Translations under genes and position numbers: made by a program
The notes under the pieces: generated by a model
The model's input: the letters and a program-made list of their open reading frames with translations, nothing else
Database searches by the model: none
What the model was told of the DNA's origin: nothing
In this document: piece after piece, positions 1,341-24,101 of the stretch
How positions within the stretch are numbered: position 1 is the first letter of the stretch
Layout of the letters: each line of letters begins with the position of its first letter
DNA from: Bdellovibrio sp. NC01
GTDB taxonomy: Bacteria > Bdellovibrionota > Bdellovibrionia > Bdellovibrionales > Bdellovibrionaceae
Assembly: GCF_006874625.1 (NCBI RefSeq)
Contig: NZ_CP030034.1
Location: 2,604,001-2,668,000, forward strand
DNA length: 64,000 nt
Direction of reading: 5' to 3'

Positions 1341-2321
1341 CTATTTAATACTCAGAATCCAGTCAGCGATCTTCTGTCTGTCCGCTGCACTTAACTGCCC
1401 GCCTTGTGGCATGTCGTTACGACCACCTGACACGCCCGCACCTTTTAAAGCAGAATAAAGCTTCGATCCACTTAAGCTTCCTTTTACAACCCAGCCACTG
1501 CTAATAGCTTTACTAAGGGTCAGGTTTACAAGGTTCGAGTGACAGCTTGTGCAGTTCGTATCTACAACCGCTTTCGCAGCAACCAACAATGGATCAGGTG
1601 CAACTACTGTCGAATCGTCCTGATAATTCATCAAAGACGGATCGTAGATCACGTTCGCAATTGAATTCTCACTCGCGATATAACGAGACATCACGTTCAA
1701 CTGCGGAGGCGTTAACAACAAATTTTCATCTGCTGGCACCGAGTACACCATAGCATCAAGAACATTTCCCAATGTCACGGTTTTATCTACATATGAAAAC
1801 TCAGTGGGAACGCCGGTTGTTGTGATTGTTCCTGTTTGGACAACACCGTTTACTAAAAGTGTGATGTCCTTCGGCTGAATACCAAACGAAACCGCGATAA
1901 CCATTTTATCGCCTTCGCTTGGAACATTTGCTGTTAATGAGGTGTAACGAGAAGCATCGGAAAAATGATACGCCGTAATTTTATTACTACTGACAGAAAC
2001 GCGTCCTTCATCTAATCCGGTACCAGAATTGATAGACAACAAAGTTCCAGTCGCCGATTTATTTGCCGCGATCACTGCACTGAAACGCTCTGCCATAAAC
2101 AGCGCGTTTTTCGTAACGGACCCACCACCTGAATAAGCCAAACGATCTGTCGTCAAAAGAGTCGAAAGATTTTCATTATCTATGTTCGAGGCGTATTCAG
2201 CCAGACTCGACTGATAAACGACGGAGTCCTGTACGACCATGTCGCTACAGTTTTGGAAACAGAGGATCAACACACTTGCCGATAGCAAGCCAGTGATTTT
2301 AAAAAAGTGCTTCTTCATCAT
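1341..2321 (-). CDS. Lipoprotein with LamG-like region and C-terminal heme c site
   Basis: This 326-residue exported protein has three parts. The N-terminus (ILCFQNCS) is an atypical lipobox with Cys25, a form shared with the gene at 6699. Residues about 70-225 look like a concanavalin/LamG sandwich, ending in a DAMVYSVPADENLL...MSRYIASE stretch typical of the last strand of such domains. The C-terminus has a single CTSCH heme c site (residues 257-261) and a possible axial methionine in NDMPQGG (about 304), as in small class I cytochromes. A sigma-28 type promoter lies just upstream. It probably sits in the outer membrane and carries electrons, but its partner is unknown. The CxxCH region resembles the one in the operon at 3392. 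Confidence 0.7.
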   Translation of the reverse strand: MMKKHFFKITGLLSASVLILCFQNCSDMVVQDSVVYQSSLAEYASNIDNENLSTLLTTDRLAYSGGGSVTKNALFMAERFSAVIAANKSATGTLLSINSGTGLDEGRVSVSSNKITAYHFSDASRYTSLTANVPSEGDKMVIAVSFGIQPKDITLLVNGVVQTGTITTTGVPTEFSYVDKTVTLGNVLDAMVYSVPADENLLLTPPQLNVMSRYIASENSIANVIYDPSLMNYQDDSTVVAPDPLLVAAKAVVDTNCTSCHSNLVNLTLSKAISSGWVVKGSLSGSKLYSALKGAGVSGGRNDMPQGGQLSAADRQKIADWILSIK

Positions 2322-2339
2322 TCCCCCGAGGTCTAGTTC

Positions 2340-2366
2340 TTATCGGCAGACCGCGAGAAAATTCCA
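2340..2366 (-). promoter_or_regulatory. Sigma-28 (FliA) type promoter
   Basis: On the minus strand, GCCGATAA (2340-2347) matches the sigma-28 -10 element in all eight positions. TGGAATTT lies 11 bases upstream (2359-2366) and matches TAAAGTTT at five of eight. The predicted start is near 2333, leaving a short leader with a GGGGGA ribosome site before the ATG at 2321. Confidence 0.6.
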
Positions 2367-2435
2367 TATCTAAATGCTCCATGTTTTTTCTGAGTAAATA
2401 GAACGTCTCATATTGCGAATTTACCAGCTAACTAT

Positions 2436-3305
2436 GTGAAGACACGGCTTAAGTTGATTCAAAAAATGACGATAAACCAATTGATGAAAACACTAATTGC
2501 AGCACTGACAATCTTCTTTGTTTCTTTCCATGCACAAGCGATGAAAATCACCGTCGTTAAAAATGGCAAGGCCTTGATCGATCTCGAGGGAGAAACAGCA
2601 AAAGTGGGTGACCAATTTTTTGCCATTAATGAAGAAGGCAAAAAGAAAGGTCTTTTGCAAATTCGCCAAGTTAAAGGTTCACGCGCTATCGCAGGTATCG
2701 TAAAAGGTAATGCCGCCGAAGGCTTTGTCCTTGAACCTCGTGATGAAAGCAGCACAAGAGGTTCTCACCGTTCAAAAGATAAAGCCGCTTGGGGTTTGTC
2801 TGCGGGTTATTCAATGAATAAGATGACTGTCAAACCAGCAAGCAGCTCTGTTGATTTGTCGGGCACGAGTTACAATCTTTTAGGCTTCTATCAAATGCAG
2901 CTGGATAAAAATATCAGTGTCAAATTCTCTGGCGGTTATCAAACGTTGGTTGCTAGCGGCACTGCTAGTTCTGCGATTTGCAATGGCTCGACAGATTGTA
3001 AAGTGGAACTTTCTTATCTGGGTGTCGATGCTCTGGTGCGCTACTCTTTCGTGAATTCTAAGACGATGGAATTCTGGGGTGGTGCGGGTCTTGGCTTCTT
3101 GTTTGCGATTGGTAAAACAAGTAACGTGCTTGATACAAGCAAAGTGACGACTAACCAAACTATCTTGGGATCTTTGGGCGTTGACTATAAGTTAAACAAG
3201 GACCATTTCATACCGTTCCAATTTGAATATGCCATGTTCCCTAACAACAGCACCTCATCTGCGAATCAAATGATTTTCTCAGTTGGGTACGGTTGGAACT
3301 TATAA
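2436..3305 (+). CDS. Exported outer-membrane beta-barrel protein
   Basis: This exported protein of up to 289 residues has a small N-terminal module and a C-terminal barrel. Residues about 36-110 form a compact beta-rich part (KITVVKNGKALIDLEG onwards); residues 115-289 alternate in the pattern of an eight-stranded barrel and end in GYGWNL. The start is uncertain: GTG at 2436, ATG at 2466 and ATG at 2484 are all in frame and none has a convincing ribosome site. The ATG at 2484 gives the neatest signal peptide (MKTLIAALTIFFVSFHAQA). Two cysteines (in ICNGSTDCK) could form a loop disulfide. The function is unknown. Confidence 0.7.
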   Translation: MKTRLKLIQKMTINQLMKTLIAALTIFFVSFHAQAMKITVVKNGKALIDLEGETAKVGDQFFAINEEGKKKGLLQIRQVKGSRAIAGIVKGNAAEGFVLEPRDESSTRGSHRSKDKAAWGLSAGYSMNKMTVKPASSSVDLSGTSYNLLGFYQMQLDKNISVKFSGGYQTLVASGTASSAICNGSTDCKVELSYLGVDALVRYSFVNSKTMEFWGGAGLGFLFAIGKTSNVLDTSKVTTNQTILGSLGVDYKLNKDHFIPFQFEYAMFPNNSTSSANQMIFSVGYGWNL

Positions 3306-3391
3306 AAATTTGAGATCTGTTCCATTAGCTGTCCAAAAGTCTTTAGTGTTACCAAGAACATACCGATTCGTTTAGACAGGGGGAACGAATC

Positions 3392-4990
3392 ATGAACGGT
3401 ATCTTATTGAAGATCGCTGTAGCGACAGCTTTCACTTCAACGGCTTCTGCTCAAGACCTCACTCCACAAGCTTTCTTTAATCGTTGTTATGTTCAGTTGA
3501 CTGGTAAACCAGTTCCTCTCAATCACGCATTGATGAAAAAAGTTATCGCCGGTCAAACGACGGCGCAAAGTGCATGCAGTGAGGTTCTACGCAAAGGCTT
3601 GCTTGCGAAATCTGGAGCATTAAACACGCCAGGCGATACTGAAAGTAAGGCCGTACTGAATACGTTCTATACGTTCCACCGCACGTGGTTCCCTACTAAC
3701 AATATCAATTCGATTTCGGGTTATTCCTCTGGCGAACAAAACGGCACAGCCGATCTTTATGATGCCTCAGAGCCCGCTCTTGCTGTTACTTATTCCGTAT
3801 TTGGTGTGGGTCAGAAATACTCTGACGTCTTAAACCGTACTACTGGTGTTCATGCCATGCGTTCTGAAGATGCGGCGGTCGCTGCCCGTATGAAATGGGT
3901 GGCTTCTCATCCAGGTCGTTTCATTAGAAATGATGCAGCTCAATCAACGTCGATGTTTTCGTTCCGTGAACCGTCTTCTGTAAATACGACGATCAGTCGT
4001 AACATCAACAAGCATCTTTCAACGAAAATTAAAATGCCACAAATCGAAGTGGGCACGCTGATTGGTATTCGTCCGACGACGGAGTCTGTGATGGTGCCAA
4101 ACATTTCACTCACTCCATTAGGTAGTGCCGCGACTGATAAAGGTTCGTATGCCGCTGGCAAATTGAATTATTCGTATGACTTCTTTAAACCGTTTGGTGG
4201 CGGTGTGCTTGGTTCCCCGATCTATGTTTTGCAAAACTTAGGTCACGGTTACAATATGAAGTTCAACGGCCAAACAAAAGTGGCGCGTCGTTGGTCACAA
4301 GCAAACATGAATACATTCTTGTGTGCGAGCCTACCCGCTTTGCGTGAAGCTGACGTTAAAAGTTTTGTAAGCACAACATCAACTGCTCCGTTTAGAAATT
4401 CCACTAGCTGCGTGATGTGCCATGCGACTTTAGATCCCATGGCTTACACGGCCCGTAACATCACTGTCGGTGCGACAGATATTTTCTTACCTAATAAAGA
4501 CGGCGATGACACCCGCGATGCAGCTGGTAAATTAATCGCCGCGCCACTTGCTTATGTCAGAACGGCTGTGGCAGTGACGACTTACAAACCCTTAAATGCG
4601 TCTGTCAGCGGCTGGCCGACAGAACCTGTGACGGATTTCCATTTGCAAAAACCAACGGGTCGTTTGTTCTTCCGTTCCTTCACAGGCGCTCTTGTTGATA
4701 AGTCCGTCGCTGATATGGCAGGCCTTGGTAAAGCGATGTCCGAAACGGATGACTACTACTTGTGTGCAGCGAAAAGATATTTCGAGTTTATGACTGGGAT
4801 TTCCGTGCCGTTGTACGATCGCACCGATCCACGCAACGCAGACATGAATAAGTCACTGACTGCGAATGACATTGCCGATCGAAACTTTATTGATGATCTG
4901 GCAAGCAAACTGCGCAGCACAGGTTCGGTGATCACGTTACTTGAAGATATTATGGCTTCTGATTACTACAAAAAAGAAAACTACAGATAA
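3392..4990 (+). CDS. Exported CxxCH protein, first gene of DUF1501-type operon
   Basis: This 532-residue secreted protein has a signal peptide ending at STASAQ and one heme c-type motif, CVMCH, at residues 340-344 followed by LDPMA. Its layout resembles the DUF1592/DUF1588/DUF1585 proteins, which pair with DUF1501 or DUF1552 proteins: a helical N-terminal repeat with regularly placed cysteines, the CxxCH followed by LDP, and a C-terminal CAAKRYFEFMTG...LLEDIMASDYYKK segment like DUF1585. The next gene is indeed DUF1501-like. The ATG follows a GGGGGAA ribosome site. The three genes 3392-7415 have gaps of only 8-12 bases, so they form an operon. The biochemical role of such pairs is not established; family assignment is by motif pattern only. 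Confidence 0.65.
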   Translation: MNGILLKIAVATAFTSTASAQDLTPQAFFNRCYVQLTGKPVPLNHALMKKVIAGQTTAQSACSEVLRKGLLAKSGALNTPGDTESKAVLNTFYTFHRTWFPTNNINSISGYSSGEQNGTADLYDASEPALAVTYSVFGVGQKYSDVLNRTTGVHAMRSEDAAVAARMKWVASHPGRFIRNDAAQSTSMFSFREPSSVNTTISRNINKHLSTKIKMPQIEVGTLIGIRPTTESVMVPNISLTPLGSAATDKGSYAAGKLNYSYDFFKPFGGGVLGSPIYVLQNLGHGYNMKFNGQTKVARRWSQANMNTFLCASLPALREADVKSFVSTTSTAPFRNSTSCVMCHATLDPMAYTARNITVGATDIFLPNKDGDDTRDAAGKLIAAPLAYVRTAVAVTTYKPLNASVSGWPTEPVTDFHLQKPTGRLFFRSFTGALVDKSVADMAGLGKAMSETDDYYLCAAKRYFEFMTGISVPLYDRTDPRNADMNKSLTANDIADRNFIDDLASKLRSTGSVITLLEDIMASDYYKKENYR

Positions 4991-20021: not shown

Positions 20022-21911
20022 TTATGACTTAACTAGGTTCTGTGTCCATTGTTGGATCATAGCCAGAGTTCCTTGACGAGCATTGGCAAATTGGACGCCG
20101 TACGCTTGGTTTTGCTCGCTCCACACCACTTGACCTTGAACTTCGATCATCTCGTGTCCATCTGGGCTTGTGATGCGCATTGTGATGATGCCGCCTTTTT
20201 CCAACGCTTCTTCCGTGTTGAAAGACAGACCCCCTTGAGAGATCGTGTTCATAGATCCCACAAGCTCTTTATCACCAACCATCACACGGATTTGCGAACT
20301 CATACGGAAGCGCTCATGCTTACGTTGATGTTTCGGATCACGACGACGAAGGACAAACCATACAGCTAATGGTAAAGCCATTAAGCCCACCATCACACCT
20401 GCCATCGGTGTTGGACCTTGTCCATTACCCGGGCCATTGTGAATTGCTGTGGAGACCAAACCACAACCACCGGCACTTCCACCAGAATCACTTGCGACAC
20501 CACGAAGTTGTGCTTTGTATTCCGGTTGATAAGAAGACACGGTTGCAACGGCATTTTTTGCATCGACAATCAACGCGTTCGCATTAATACGACCGCTTGT
20601 TGAAACTAAACCGTTATATGAACTGCGCACATCGACACTGTTCATCACGGCTTGTTTGAGCTGATAACCTGTCATGTTCGGCGCTTCACGTAAAGCCATC
20701 GCTGCCATACCGGCAACAAATGGTGCCGCCATACTTGTTCCATCCATATAACCATAAACGTCGCCAGGCAAAGTACTAAAGATACGCTCGCCCGGACTTG
20801 CAACGTGAACAAGGTTTGCACCGTAATTCGAAAAGTTTGAAAGAGTATCGTACTGTGAAGCCGAAGCCACTGCGATGTTACTTGGAACATCGTAGTTCGC
20901 GGGATACATCGGATAATCGCTTGAATCGTTATTCGTATGATAATTGCCAGCCGCTGTCACAATCAGTACTTGTTGATCGTAAGCGTAAGCCAAAGCCTCA
21001 TGCAATGAACGCGAATAGTTCGGTCCACCCCATGAGTTATTAATCACTTTTGCGCCGTTATTAACAGCGTAATAAATCGCATTGATCGCTGCCGCTGTCG
21101 TTCCTGAACCGTTTGCATCCAAGAATTTCAAAGGCATGATTTGAATTGGCGATTCCTGCAAAGGACGCGCAAACATATTCTGCGCAACACCCGCAATAAT
21201 ACCCGCGACGTGAGTACCGTGATCGTCATCATCCAAAAAGTTATTCGTGTTTGAAATAAAGTTCCAACCACTGACGTCATCGACATAACCGTTTTGGTCA
21301 TCATCCACGCCCGCTGTTCCGTTGTACTCGCGAGTGTTCACCCACAAGGCACCCGAACCACCATTGGCGACTGATTTAAAGAAAGTATGATTTTTATCAA
21401 GACCGGTATCAACGACTGCGACCACAACTTTATTTGTCGGACTTACAGGTGTGATTTGCGACCATGTCGAAGTCACGCCCACATTGATCGGAGCTTGGTG
21501 ATAGAGGTTGTCGTTTTGAGCAATATTGTTAGTGAGCACTTCATTATACGTGTACGAACTTTGGTAAACGTATAGCTGCGCATTATTCGAAGAACTTGCG
21601 TCATCAACTTTAGTGAAGATGTAGTTCGGCTCTACGAACTCAACATCTGGGTCATTTTTGATGTCTTCAAGATTCTGAGCCTCGCCCGCCTGAGCTTTTA
21701 ATGAAATATGGTACATGCCCATGCCGGCAAAAGCCTTCTGAACACTCGCCGATTTCATCGCAAGCTTGGTGCGCACCTTGGCAACGCTCGAACTTGATGA
21801 TGTTGATTTGTACTTTACGATGAATTCACCTGGAACGGCCTGCGCGCTCTGCGCCAATGAAGACGCAGGAGCTGTAATAGAGAATATAAGACCTATTAGA
21901 AACCGTTTCAC
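20022..21911 (-). CDS. Subtilisin-like protease fused to cytoplasmic PilZ domain
   Basis: This 629-residue protein joins three parts. A signal peptide (to SLAQ, residue 21) is followed by an I9-type propeptide (27-100, ending VEFVEPNYIF). The S8 protease domain (about 160-450) has Asp168 in VVDTGLD, His231 in HGTHVAG, an oxyanion Asn in NNSWGG (about 292) and Ser393 in DGTSMAAP. Then a Gly-rich linker (GGSAGGCGLV), a membrane helix (503-521) and RRR lead to a C-terminal PilZ-like domain (530-629). PilZ has RxxxR (Arg530, Arg534), but TISQGG replaces the usual D/N-x-S-x-x-G. Topology puts the protease outside and PilZ inside. GTG start with a GGAGAA site. Confidence 0.85.
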   Translation of the reverse strand: MKRFLIGLIFSITAPASSLAQSAQAVPGEFIVKYKSTSSSSSVAKVRTKLAMKSASVQKAFAGMGMYHISLKAQAGEAQNLEDIKNDPDVEFVEPNYIFTKVDDASSSNNAQLYVYQSSYTYNEVLTNNIAQNDNLYHQAPINVGVTSTWSQITPVSPTNKVVVAVVDTGLDKNHTFFKSVANGGSGALWVNTREYNGTAGVDDDQNGYVDDVSGWNFISNTNNFLDDDDHGTHVAGIIAGVAQNMFARPLQESPIQIMPLKFLDANGSGTTAAAINAIYYAVNNGAKVINNSWGGPNYSRSLHEALAYAYDQQVLIVTAAGNYHTNNDSSDYPMYPANYDVPSNIAVASASQYDTLSNFSNYGANLVHVASPGERIFSTLPGDVYGYMDGTSMAAPFVAGMAAMALREAPNMTGYQLKQAVMNSVDVRSSYNGLVSTSGRINANALIVDAKNAVATVSSYQPEYKAQLRGVASDSGGSAGGCGLVSTAIHNGPGNGQGPTPMAGVMVGLMALPLAVWFVLRRRDPKHQRKHERFRMSSQIRVMVGDKELVGSMNTISQGGLSFNTEEALEKGGIITMRITSPDGHEMIEVQGQVVWSEQNQAYGVQFANARQGTLAMIQQWTQNLVKS

Positions 21912-22064: not shown

Positions 22065-22670
22065 ATGAAACAGCTTCAGAAAATTTTCTTGCAAGGTCTT
22101 GTCACTTTCCTACCCGTCGCTTTAACGATTTATATCATCTATGCGGGTATCTCTATCGTCGACAGTCTCCTTGGAGATTCACTTCGCCTGATTATGCCGG
22201 TGTATATCCCTGGTCTAGGCTTCCTGCTTACAATTTTGCTTATCTTCCTTCTGGGCTTCTTGCTGAACAGCTTGGTGGCGGCGGGTGCTTTCCATAAACT
22301 TGAGCATCAACTTATGAAGGTTCCTTTCATTAAGGCGATCTATGGACCTCTTCGCGACTTGATGAACTTGTTTTCTAAAGGTGGTGGCGCAGGTCACGCG
22401 ATGCAAACGGTTGTTTTCGTCGATATGGGCGAAACTGGTGTGCGCGCCTTGGGTCTTGTGACTCGTGAAAACTTCAAAGACATTCCTGCGATTGAAGCCA
22501 ATGCGGGCGATCGTATCGCAGTTTATATTCCTATGAGCTATGGTCTGGGCGGATTTACTTTGATGGTTCCCCGCTCTAAAATTACTCCGTTAGATATGCC
22601 AATTGAAAAAGCGATGAGTCTAGCCATCACAGGCTGGGTCAAAGCTGAAAAGAACGACGAGGTTCCGTAA
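22065..22670 (+). CDS. DUF502 family membrane protein
   Basis: The 201-residue product matches the DUF502 family: two transmembrane helices (about 10-32 and 45-72) joined by a short loop with IPGLGFLLTILLIFLLGFL, then a soluble beta-rich domain with the family segments KAIYGPLRDLMN and TVVFVDMGETGVRALGLVTR. Members are conserved inner-membrane proteins of unknown function. It heads a tight three-gene operon: the next start follows its stop directly, and the third gene comes 9 bases later. Confidence 0.85.
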   Translation: MKQLQKIFLQGLVTFLPVALTIYIIYAGISIVDSLLGDSLRLIMPVYIPGLGFLLTILLIFLLGFLLNSLVAAGAFHKLEHQLMKVPFIKAIYGPLRDLMNLFSKGGGAGHAMQTVVFVDMGETGVRALGLVTRENFKDIPAIEANAGDRIAVYIPMSYGLGGFTLMVPRSKITPLDMPIEKAMSLAITGWVKAEKNDEVP

Positions 22671-24101
22671 ATGCCAGATTCCGCGCAAATGAATATTGAA
22701 TGCAATACTGATACGACATTAGGTAAAGCTCTTCGCATCAATCAGGATCTTTCGCGTTACGGTGCTTTCGCAGAAATCGGTGCCGGTCAAGAAGTAGCTC
22801 GTCACTTCTTCCAAGCTGGCAAAGCTTCACAAACTATCGCAAAAACTATTTCTGCTTACGATATGATCGTAAGCGATGATATTTACGGTCGCGAAGCCAA
22901 CGGTCGTTACGTGTGTGAATCACGCGTGCTCAAAATGTTGACTCACGAATATCGTCTGTTGGAAGAGCGTTTGACTTCACATCGCGGGAAACAATCGCGT
23001 TTCTTCTCTTTCGCCAACACAGTGGCGACAGCTTCAACCGGTGGTTCAAAACAATCGCATGGTTGGATGGGTGTGCGCTTCCAAAAAGAACCGGGTGCTC
23101 CTCACAATGATATTATCTTGCATGTGCGCATGTTGGATCGCTATCGCCTGCAACAACAAGAAGCTTTGGGCATCTTGGGTGTGAATCTTTTGAACTGCGC
23201 TTTCTATCACTCGGATACGGCTGAAGATTTCATTTCTTATTTGGTTGAAAATTTAAAAGACGGCCAAGTCGTGATCGACGTGATCAAATTCAACGGCCCG
23301 GATTTAAAACACTTTGATGCCCGTTTGATGAATTTGGAATTGGTGCGCAAAGGTTTGGCGGAAGCGATTCTGTTTTCACCGCAAAATGAAATCTTAAATG
23401 TGTCTGATGCTATTTACGGCAAGTCTTTGCTGATCCAACGTGGCACATTCCGTCCGTTGACGATCACGCACTTGGATGTTTTGCAAAAAGGACTTGTGCA
23501 AAGCCGCGAAGACATCATGCAAAGCGAAGGCAAAGAAATCCCTGTGCTTCCGATGATGGAAATCACGATGCAGAATTTGCAAGCCGATGGTCACATCAAC
23601 GAGCGCGATTTCTTAGATCGCATCGAAACGATCACCAGCCTTGGCTTTCACGTTTTAATTTCTAATTTCACTTTGTTCTATTCATTGAAACGTTTTATTC
23701 GCAGATACAACCCGCATTTCTTGGCGTTGGTTGTTGCGGCTTCTTCTTTGGATAAGTTGTTTAAAGAAGAACACTACAGCGATCTTGAAGGTGGCCTTCT
23801 GGAAGGCCTTGGCAAATTGCTCGAACAAAAAACGAAACTTTACGTTTATCCACACAAAACACCGATGTTGTGTATGACTTCGAAAAGTTTCTTCCCGGTT
23901 CCACACTTGCGCCATATTTATTCGTATTTTACCGAGAATAAACAAATCGTCGACATCTCTGGTTGCGACGAAGCGGACGAATATCTGCACTCTAATGACG
24001 TGATGGATTTGCTCGAAAACGGTGATGCGAAATGGGAATCATTGGTTCCACCAAAAGTTCGCGATTTGATTAAAAGTAAAAAGCTTTTTGGCTTGAAGTA
24101 A
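22671..24101 (+). CDS. Conserved cytosolic protein, often mislabelled TonB receptor or nicotinate adenylyltransferase
   Basis: This 476-residue protein has no signal peptide or membrane segment. It belongs to a widespread family recalled from many genomes by the segments INQDLSRYGAFAEIGAGQEV, ISAYDMIVSDDIYG, WMGVRFQ, and DIILHVRMLD followed by QQEALGILGVNLL. Databases give these proteins misleading names such as TonB-dependent receptor or nicotinate-nucleotide adenylyltransferase, but neither a plug/barrel nor an HxGH motif is present. The length is usual. It sits between DUF502 and an LtaS-like gene without spacing, so a role near the envelope is possible. Function unknown. Confidence 0.75.
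   Translation: MPDSAQMNIECNTDTTLGKALRINQDLSRYGAFAEIGAGQEVARHFFQAGKASQTIAKTISAYDMIVSDDIYGREANGRYVCESRVLKMLTHEYRLLEERLTSHRGKQSRFFSFANTVATASTGGSKQSHGWMGVRFQKEPGAPHNDIILHVRMLDRYRLQQQEALGILGVNLLNCAFYHSDTAEDFISYLVENLKDGQVVIDVIKFNGPDLKHFDARLMNLELVRKGLAEAILFSPQNEILNVSDAIYGKSLLIQRGTFRPLTITHLDVLQKGLVQSREDIMQSEGKEIPVLPMMEITMQNLQADGHINERDFLDRIETITSLGFHVLISNFTLFYSLKRFIRRYNPHFLALVVAASSLDKLFKEEHYSDLEGGLLEGLGKLLEQKTKLYVYPHKTPMLCMTSKSFFPVPHLRHIYSYFTENKQIVDISGCDEADEYLHSNDVMDLLENGDAKWESLVPPKVRDLIKSKKLFGLK

Follow-up and report, generated by a model that had tools for sequence, protein, structure and literature searches.

Can a single polypeptide let a bacterium set, through a second messenger inside the cell, the proteolysis that takes place outside it? 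This question is raised by a gene at positions 20022..21911 of the window (the whole stretch of 64,000 nucleotides of Bdellovibrio sp. NC01 DNA analysed here), which encodes, from a GTG start and with the stop codon included, a protein of 629 amino acids that we refer to as the S8-TM-PilZ protein. An initial annotation proposed that c-di-GMP in the cytoplasm controls a subtilase outside it, and this proposal stands as our leading hypothesis. A system of this kind is known in two-protein form: LapD is an inner-membrane receptor with a degenerate GGDEF-EAL module, acting on a separate cysteine protease. In LapD-LapG, cytoplasmic c-di-GMP controls the periplasmic protease across the membrane (PMC3032545). 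The S8-TM-PilZ protein resembles this system in that c-di-GMP inside would govern proteolysis outside the inner membrane, whereas it differs in that receptor and protease, separate in LapD-LapG, form one chain made of a PilZ receptor and a serine protease; its domains are PilZ and S8, with neither a GGDEF-EAL receptor nor a LapG-type cysteine protease. If the proposal is true, one protein does what LapD-LapG needs two for, with a second messenger inside setting proteolysis outside, and protein cleavage outside may be switched by the cell from its interior. In the predators that host this gene, c-di-GMP determines whether the cell attacks, replicates or exits, and few of its receptor outputs are known.

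Architecture of the S8-TM-PilZ protein

The initial annotation gave no strand; positions 20022-21911 hold a single intact open reading frame, in one frame, on the minus strand, on which all the features of the protein given below lie. The order along the chain is signal peptide, fervidolysin-type prodomain, S8 domain, disordered linker, one membrane helix, RRR and PilZ domain. The domains were called by Pfam, where Fervidolysin_NPro-like, Peptidase_S8 and PilZ all scored above their own cut-offs, and the AlphaFold2 model (47 orthologs) has a mean pLDDT of 86.6. The predicted Sec signal peptide (residues 1-21; 21849..21911) comprises a hydrophobic helix at residues 2-13, which is present in the AlphaFold2 model, and would probably be cleaved at an LAQ-like sequence; the N-termini of the orthologs are similar. 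The prodomain (residues about 22-99; 21615..21848) matched the Fervidolysin_NPro-like profile at residues 16-96 (E=6e-9), as did 44 of the 47 orthologs.

The subtilase catalytic domain (residues about 146-448; 20568..21476) matched Peptidase_S8 (PF00082) at residues 160-426 with E=5.6e-54. The catalytic residues had been numbered correctly, namely Asp168 (21408..21410), His231 (21219..21221) and Ser393, which lies in the GTSMA motif (20733..20735); all three are invariant in 58/58 homologs, and the oxyanion-hole Asn323 (20943..20945) is invariant in the 47 orthologs. Profile, Asp-His-Ser triad and fold matches to subtilisins all place the domain in family S8 and, with every catalytic residue conserved, we predict that it is an active protease. 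Deseasin MCP-01, an S8 enzyme that, unlike the S8-TM-PilZ protein, has neither a PilZ domain nor a cytoplasmic part, provides the closest solved structure of the catalytic domain (PDB 3vv3, 36% identity).

Downstream of the protease, the linker (residues 449-503; 20403..20567) is predicted to be disordered at residues 476-503 (pLDDT under 50 in the AlphaFold2 model) and leads to a membrane helix (residues 504-523; 20343..20402), which was delineated from the AlphaFold2 model and hydrophobicity. This helix is hydrophobic in every homolog measured (best 19-residue Kyte-Doolittle mean of 1.44-3.12), carries an invariant proline, Pro514 (57/57), and is followed by a positive-inside Arg cluster (residues 524-526; 20334..20342), basic residues being found after the helix in all homologs. 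Sec export combined with a positive-inside Arg cluster places the S8 domain outside and the PilZ domain inside. The proposed topology is thus supported by the signal peptide, the single helix and the Arg cluster, from which we infer it, and the proposed architecture of S8 domain, membrane helix and PilZ domain in one frame is borne out.

The PilZ domain (residues 529-623; 20043..20327) was recognised by Pfam with E=1.7e-18 and 67.3 bits against a cut-off of 22.5, and is the highest-scoring PilZ in its genome. AlphaFold2 folds it as a barrel (residues 535-608) followed by a C-terminal helix, with a pLDDT of 90.2 when the domain is modelled alone. Its sequence alone gave only weak matches in the PDB, and the fold search decided the identity: the best match is the c-di-GMP-bound PilZ domain of Alg44 (4xrn; rmsd 1.9 Å over 101 residues, Z 15.6), ahead of MotI/DgrA, MapZ, PP4397, YcgR and BcsA. 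A lack of PilZ similarity, which the initial annotation had named as fatal to its reading, is excluded by profile and structure alike. Alg44, a component of the Pseudomonas alginate machinery (PDB 4rt0, 4xrn), also has one helix between its PilZ domain and a periplasmic domain, whereas its PilZ domain is N-terminal and its periplasmic part is no enzyme; the orientation is reversed in the S8-TM-PilZ protein.

PilZ domains bind c-di-GMP through an RxxxR motif and a second motif, the usual form of which is D/N-x-S-x-x-G. The RxxxR pattern that had been reported here is R530-R534 (20310..20324), seven residues past the end of the helix, and the second motif is TISQGG at residues 556-561 (20229..20246). 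R530, R534, S558, G560, G561, V596, W597 and G605 are invariant in 55/55 sequences.

Distribution and history of the fusion

About 55 of 60 relatives (35 genera) have an ortholog that spans almost the full chain in a single stop-free frame; in the others it is truncated at a contig edge, lacks PilZ or is missing altogether. Both S8 and PilZ were matched in 47/47 members of the alignment. A strong match occurs in 91 of 291 genomes of the phylum, all of them in the class, i.e., in the order and in two genomes of a sister order. When 369 genomes of the phylum were searched with a profile of this PilZ domain, strong matches (E of 1e-17 or better) were almost confined to frames of about 600-700 amino acids within the class, one per genome; outside the class, the matches listed for these 369 genomes were weak only, in frames of at most 369 amino acids, with no long fused frame among them. 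Five more fused copies with named records came from a scan of GTDB contigs; all belong to Bdellovibrionales or to Bdellovibrio/Bdellovibrionota MAGs. Because an identical fusion without interruption is found again and again in the order and the class, we ruled out the artefact that the initial annotation had itself raised, a frameshift joining two separate genes. The fusion is neither local nor a product of frameshift, and is conserved as a single chain through the class. Constraint on the PilZ domain is similar to that on the protease (mean pairwise identities of 0.51 and 0.56, respectively, vs. 0.33 for the helix), and two constrained domains are kept on opposite sides of one helix in one chain.

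Four homologs possess the protease, the cysteine and the helix and lack the PilZ domain, namely L057 (491 amino acids), L058 (521 amino acids), L183 (505 amino acids) and L109, from the MAG GWA2_38_16. When a maximum-likelihood tree was built from the S8 region, with L183 left out, the fused proteins formed one clade with L057, L058 and L109 (99/98), in which L109 branches off from all the others (81/92, an open fork) and both L057 and L058 fall inside the fused group. The simplest history suggested by these sequences is that the tail came first and the PilZ domain was gained once, then lost on at least two occasions without loss of the tail, i.e., that a receptor domain was added onto an older Cys-membrane tail; the deepest step of this history is set by one sequence, L109, with moderate support. 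L057 (positions 2319-3791, genome G016), a PilZ-less paralog in the genus of the window, groups with sequences of another family, f10, in the same tree, which suggests horizontal acquisition, before or after the loss of PilZ.

The genomes that lack the S8-TM-PilZ protein all keep GGDEF genes, and we therefore dropped PilZ loss as a readout of lost c-di-GMP signalling. Two of these genomes, G149 and G039, keep five PilZ each, in a comparison confounded by genome reduction. In five others that lack the protein, reduced genomes of family f4 (G203, G233, G242, G251 and G283; 1.2-2.0 Mb), we noticed 0-1 PilZ and 1-2 GGDEF genes, i.e., makers of c-di-GMP that remain almost without PilZ receptors.

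The bare S8-PilZ pair has been known since 2008, when a survey in BMC Genomics listed "Subt-PilZ", NP_969350.1 of Bdellovibrio bacteriovorus, among many subtilase architectures; its table files the pair under "Signalling", and its text counts it with the domains whose function is unknown or indeterminate (PMC2605481). This protein has the same domain pair, is very probably an ortholog of the S8-TM-PilZ protein, and is only tabulated there; the table and text passage that name it give no topology, distribution, motif or mechanism. The literature searched, which covers few subscription journals, returned no experimental work on the S8-TM-PilZ protein. What is new here is the conservation, the history of the tail and a probable link to attack-phase expression (through a probable identity with Bd2545, see below). 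Together, we regard the S8-TM-PilZ protein as a real, conserved and underexplored variant of c-di-GMP control of outside proteolysis, the coupling of which we infer.

Coupling across the membrane

We propose, with modest confidence, that the S8-TM-PilZ protein is a periplasmic subtilase tethered to the inner membrane and placed under direct control by c-di-GMP. The signal peptide would export the chain and the prodomain would then be removed. The single helix would leave the active S8 domain flexibly leashed on the periplasmic side and the PilZ domain on the cytoplasmic side. Binding of c-di-GMP to the RxxxR and SxGG residues, seven residues beyond the helix, would shift the position of the helix, its oligomeric state or its partner contacts, and this change would turn the protease, or the access of substrates to it, on or off, the sign being not predictable. 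As with the coupling itself, the sign, the substrate and expression in the attack phase are points on which we can offer presumption. The 28-residue disordered stretch (476-503) adjoining the helix argues against rigid coupling, as it offers no rigid path for a signal; given this floppy linker, oligomerisation, positioning or regulated release is more likely than a rigid push. Three features speak against direct control, namely Thr or Ser at the usual Asp/Asn position, a damaged PilZ in a few orthologs, and the four homologs without PilZ.

The most serious rival, which we nevertheless consider unlikely, is that the tail composed of the cysteine, the helix and the basic residues is a dedicated signal for processing or lipid anchoring, Cys483 being lipidated or the chain being cut near GCGLV. 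The mature protease would then leave the helix, a PilZ stub would remain, and the two domains would be coupled only before cleavage, if at all. The following lines of evidence bear on this rival, which had been voiced as a worry in the initial annotation. First, the GCGLV island (residues 482-486; 20454..20468) has a mean pairwise identity of 0.85, vs. 0.34 and 0.23 for the parts of the linker on either side of it, and G482 and C483 are invariant in the 47 orthologs. Second, Cys483 is the sole cysteine of the window protein, and exactly one cysteine occurs in the mature outer part of 40/58 homologs; an intramolecular disulfide through Cys483 is therefore unlikely, and we discarded this role. 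Third, the PilZ-less L057, L058, L183 (in which GGC is kept) and L109 end right after the tail. As the tail probably predates PilZ and survives in PilZ-less copies, it makes this rival a serious one, and the conserved island could mark a cut that separates the two domains. Fourth, MYXO-CTERM tags offer a comparison, in that they have an invariant Cys, a helix and an Arg cluster, and are cleaved by an intramembrane protease, myxosortase (PMC11980579). An extracytoplasmic domain followed by a conserved short motif (here G482-C483), a helix and an Arg cluster is a likeness to both MYXO-CTERM proteins, which also share the Cys, and VesB with its GlyGly-CTERM.

On the other side, MYXO-CTERM and GlyGly-CTERM tags stand at the very end of many proteins, whereas the S8-TM-PilZ tail has a domain after it and its Cys is farther from the helix: in the homologs, the island Cys precedes the start of the best 19-residue hydrophobic window by 12-31 residues (median 20). 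No CTERM model of NCBIfam matched the tail above its cut-off, the best being MYXO-CTERM (8.2 bits vs. 20), which had no match over its cut-off in 20 relatives either. A profile of the tail run across 20 genomes found only the S8-TM-PilZ family and no other protein type, whereas sorting tags usually serve many proteins, and a strict GGCG pattern found no further C-terminal tail in the genome of the window; a general, genome-wide sorting tag was rejected on these grounds. Finally, a cut would leave the lasting fusion and the conservation of PilZ unexplained. What stands of the sorting-signal worry is thus the conserved island with its invariant Cys, along with the tail of the PilZ-less homologs; what does not is the match to a known tag. 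Both ideas could be joined, in that c-di-GMP at the juxtamembrane PilZ domain would gate processing at the Cys483 island and decide whether the protease is tethered or shed or lipid-anchored; we hold this combination to be doubtful. If true, it would make the protein a signal-gated, single-protein sorting tag with its receptor on the cytoplasmic side.

A somewhat less probable rival than the tail signal is that the PilZ domain does not sense c-di-GMP and serves as a module for partner binding or localisation at the cell pole, attached to a constitutively active protease. Partner-acting PilZ domains exist, such as the Xanthomonas PilZ-FimX pair, which is among the fold matches, and Thr stands in the second motif where Asp/Asn is usual, from which the initial annotation concluded that binding may be altered. 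TISQGG does depart from the full D/N-x-S-x-x-G consensus; of 55 sequences, 33 have T at position 556, 20 have S, and D and C occur once each. Of ten other alignable PilZ of the genome of the window, six have D/N at this position, two have S and two have E, as read from the alignments. Inside one divergent genus (g3), L241, L245 and L047 carry D and other members carry T or S; RxxxR is retained in the members read. Because T/S occurs in 53/55 sequences and toggles with Asp inside one genus, Thr556 is no sign of lost binding; as judged from the alignment, it is a family habit interchangeable with Asp and not decay, and the concern about altered binding is weakened. A minority of orthologs do have damaged motifs (L247 is without RxxxR, and L236 and L243 have Ala for Ser), whereas RxxxR and SxGG, which rarely move, are invariant in the 55 sequences across distant genera. 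Furthermore, the fold is closer to Alg44 and other ligand-binding PilZ domains (Z 11-15.6) than to the non-binding PilZ of Xanthomonas (Z about 6-7). We expect this PilZ domain to bind c-di-GMP, as the proposal of direct control requires.

A highly improbable third rival runs from the outside in, the protease cutting itself or being cut in the periplasm and the helix then being processed to release a soluble PilZ domain as output: the conserved linker island lies beside a helix with the invariant Pro514, and proline is a frequent feature of helices cut in the membrane, whereas no processing enzyme is tied to the locus and the PilZ-less homologs keep the same tail with no signal domain to release.

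Genomic neighbourhood, expression and other PilZ genes

The divergent neighbour of the fused gene (22065..22670, plus strand) encodes a DUF502 membrane protein (PF04367, E=6e-21) and adjoins the ortholog in 31 loci, within the family. A second kept neighbour encodes a conserved protein of 476 amino acids without Pfam match; the two genes together span window 22065-24101 and adjoin the fused gene in about 30 genomes of the family. Neither neighbour was found beyond the family in the stretches examined. Such conservation only suggests a functional link between the DUF502 neighbour and the fused gene.

In genome G005, which we take to be that of B. bacteriovorus HD100, with the fused gene presumably being Bd2545 by position, this gene is located at 2.4547 Mb, 24 kb after another PilZ gene. 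Lambert and colleagues reported that the pilZ genes Bd2524, Bd2545 and Bd3100 are down-regulated when the attack phase ends (PMC2797640), and 15 PilZ proteins were counted in HD100 by Hobley and colleagues (PMC3271064). Since both the location in G005 and a gap of 21 locus numbers agree with Bd2524 and Bd2545, the HD100 ortholog is probably Bd2545, in which case the fused gene would be expressed in the attack phase. In the literature searched (few subscription journals), Bd2545 is relevantly named solely in PMC2797640.

Two further loci outside the window deserve a mention. In the probable HD100 genome, a PilZ match at G005:C1:2052890-2053195 crosses two TGA stops and may be a broken gene. At L251 (G000:C1:2763800-2768500), a second S8 protease gene (514 amino acids; 2765616-2767160, minus strand) sits upstream of a separate PilZ gene with hydrophobic N-terminal segments (2764714-2765508, minus strand), at a distance of about 107 bases, so that protease and PilZ stand side by side as two genes.
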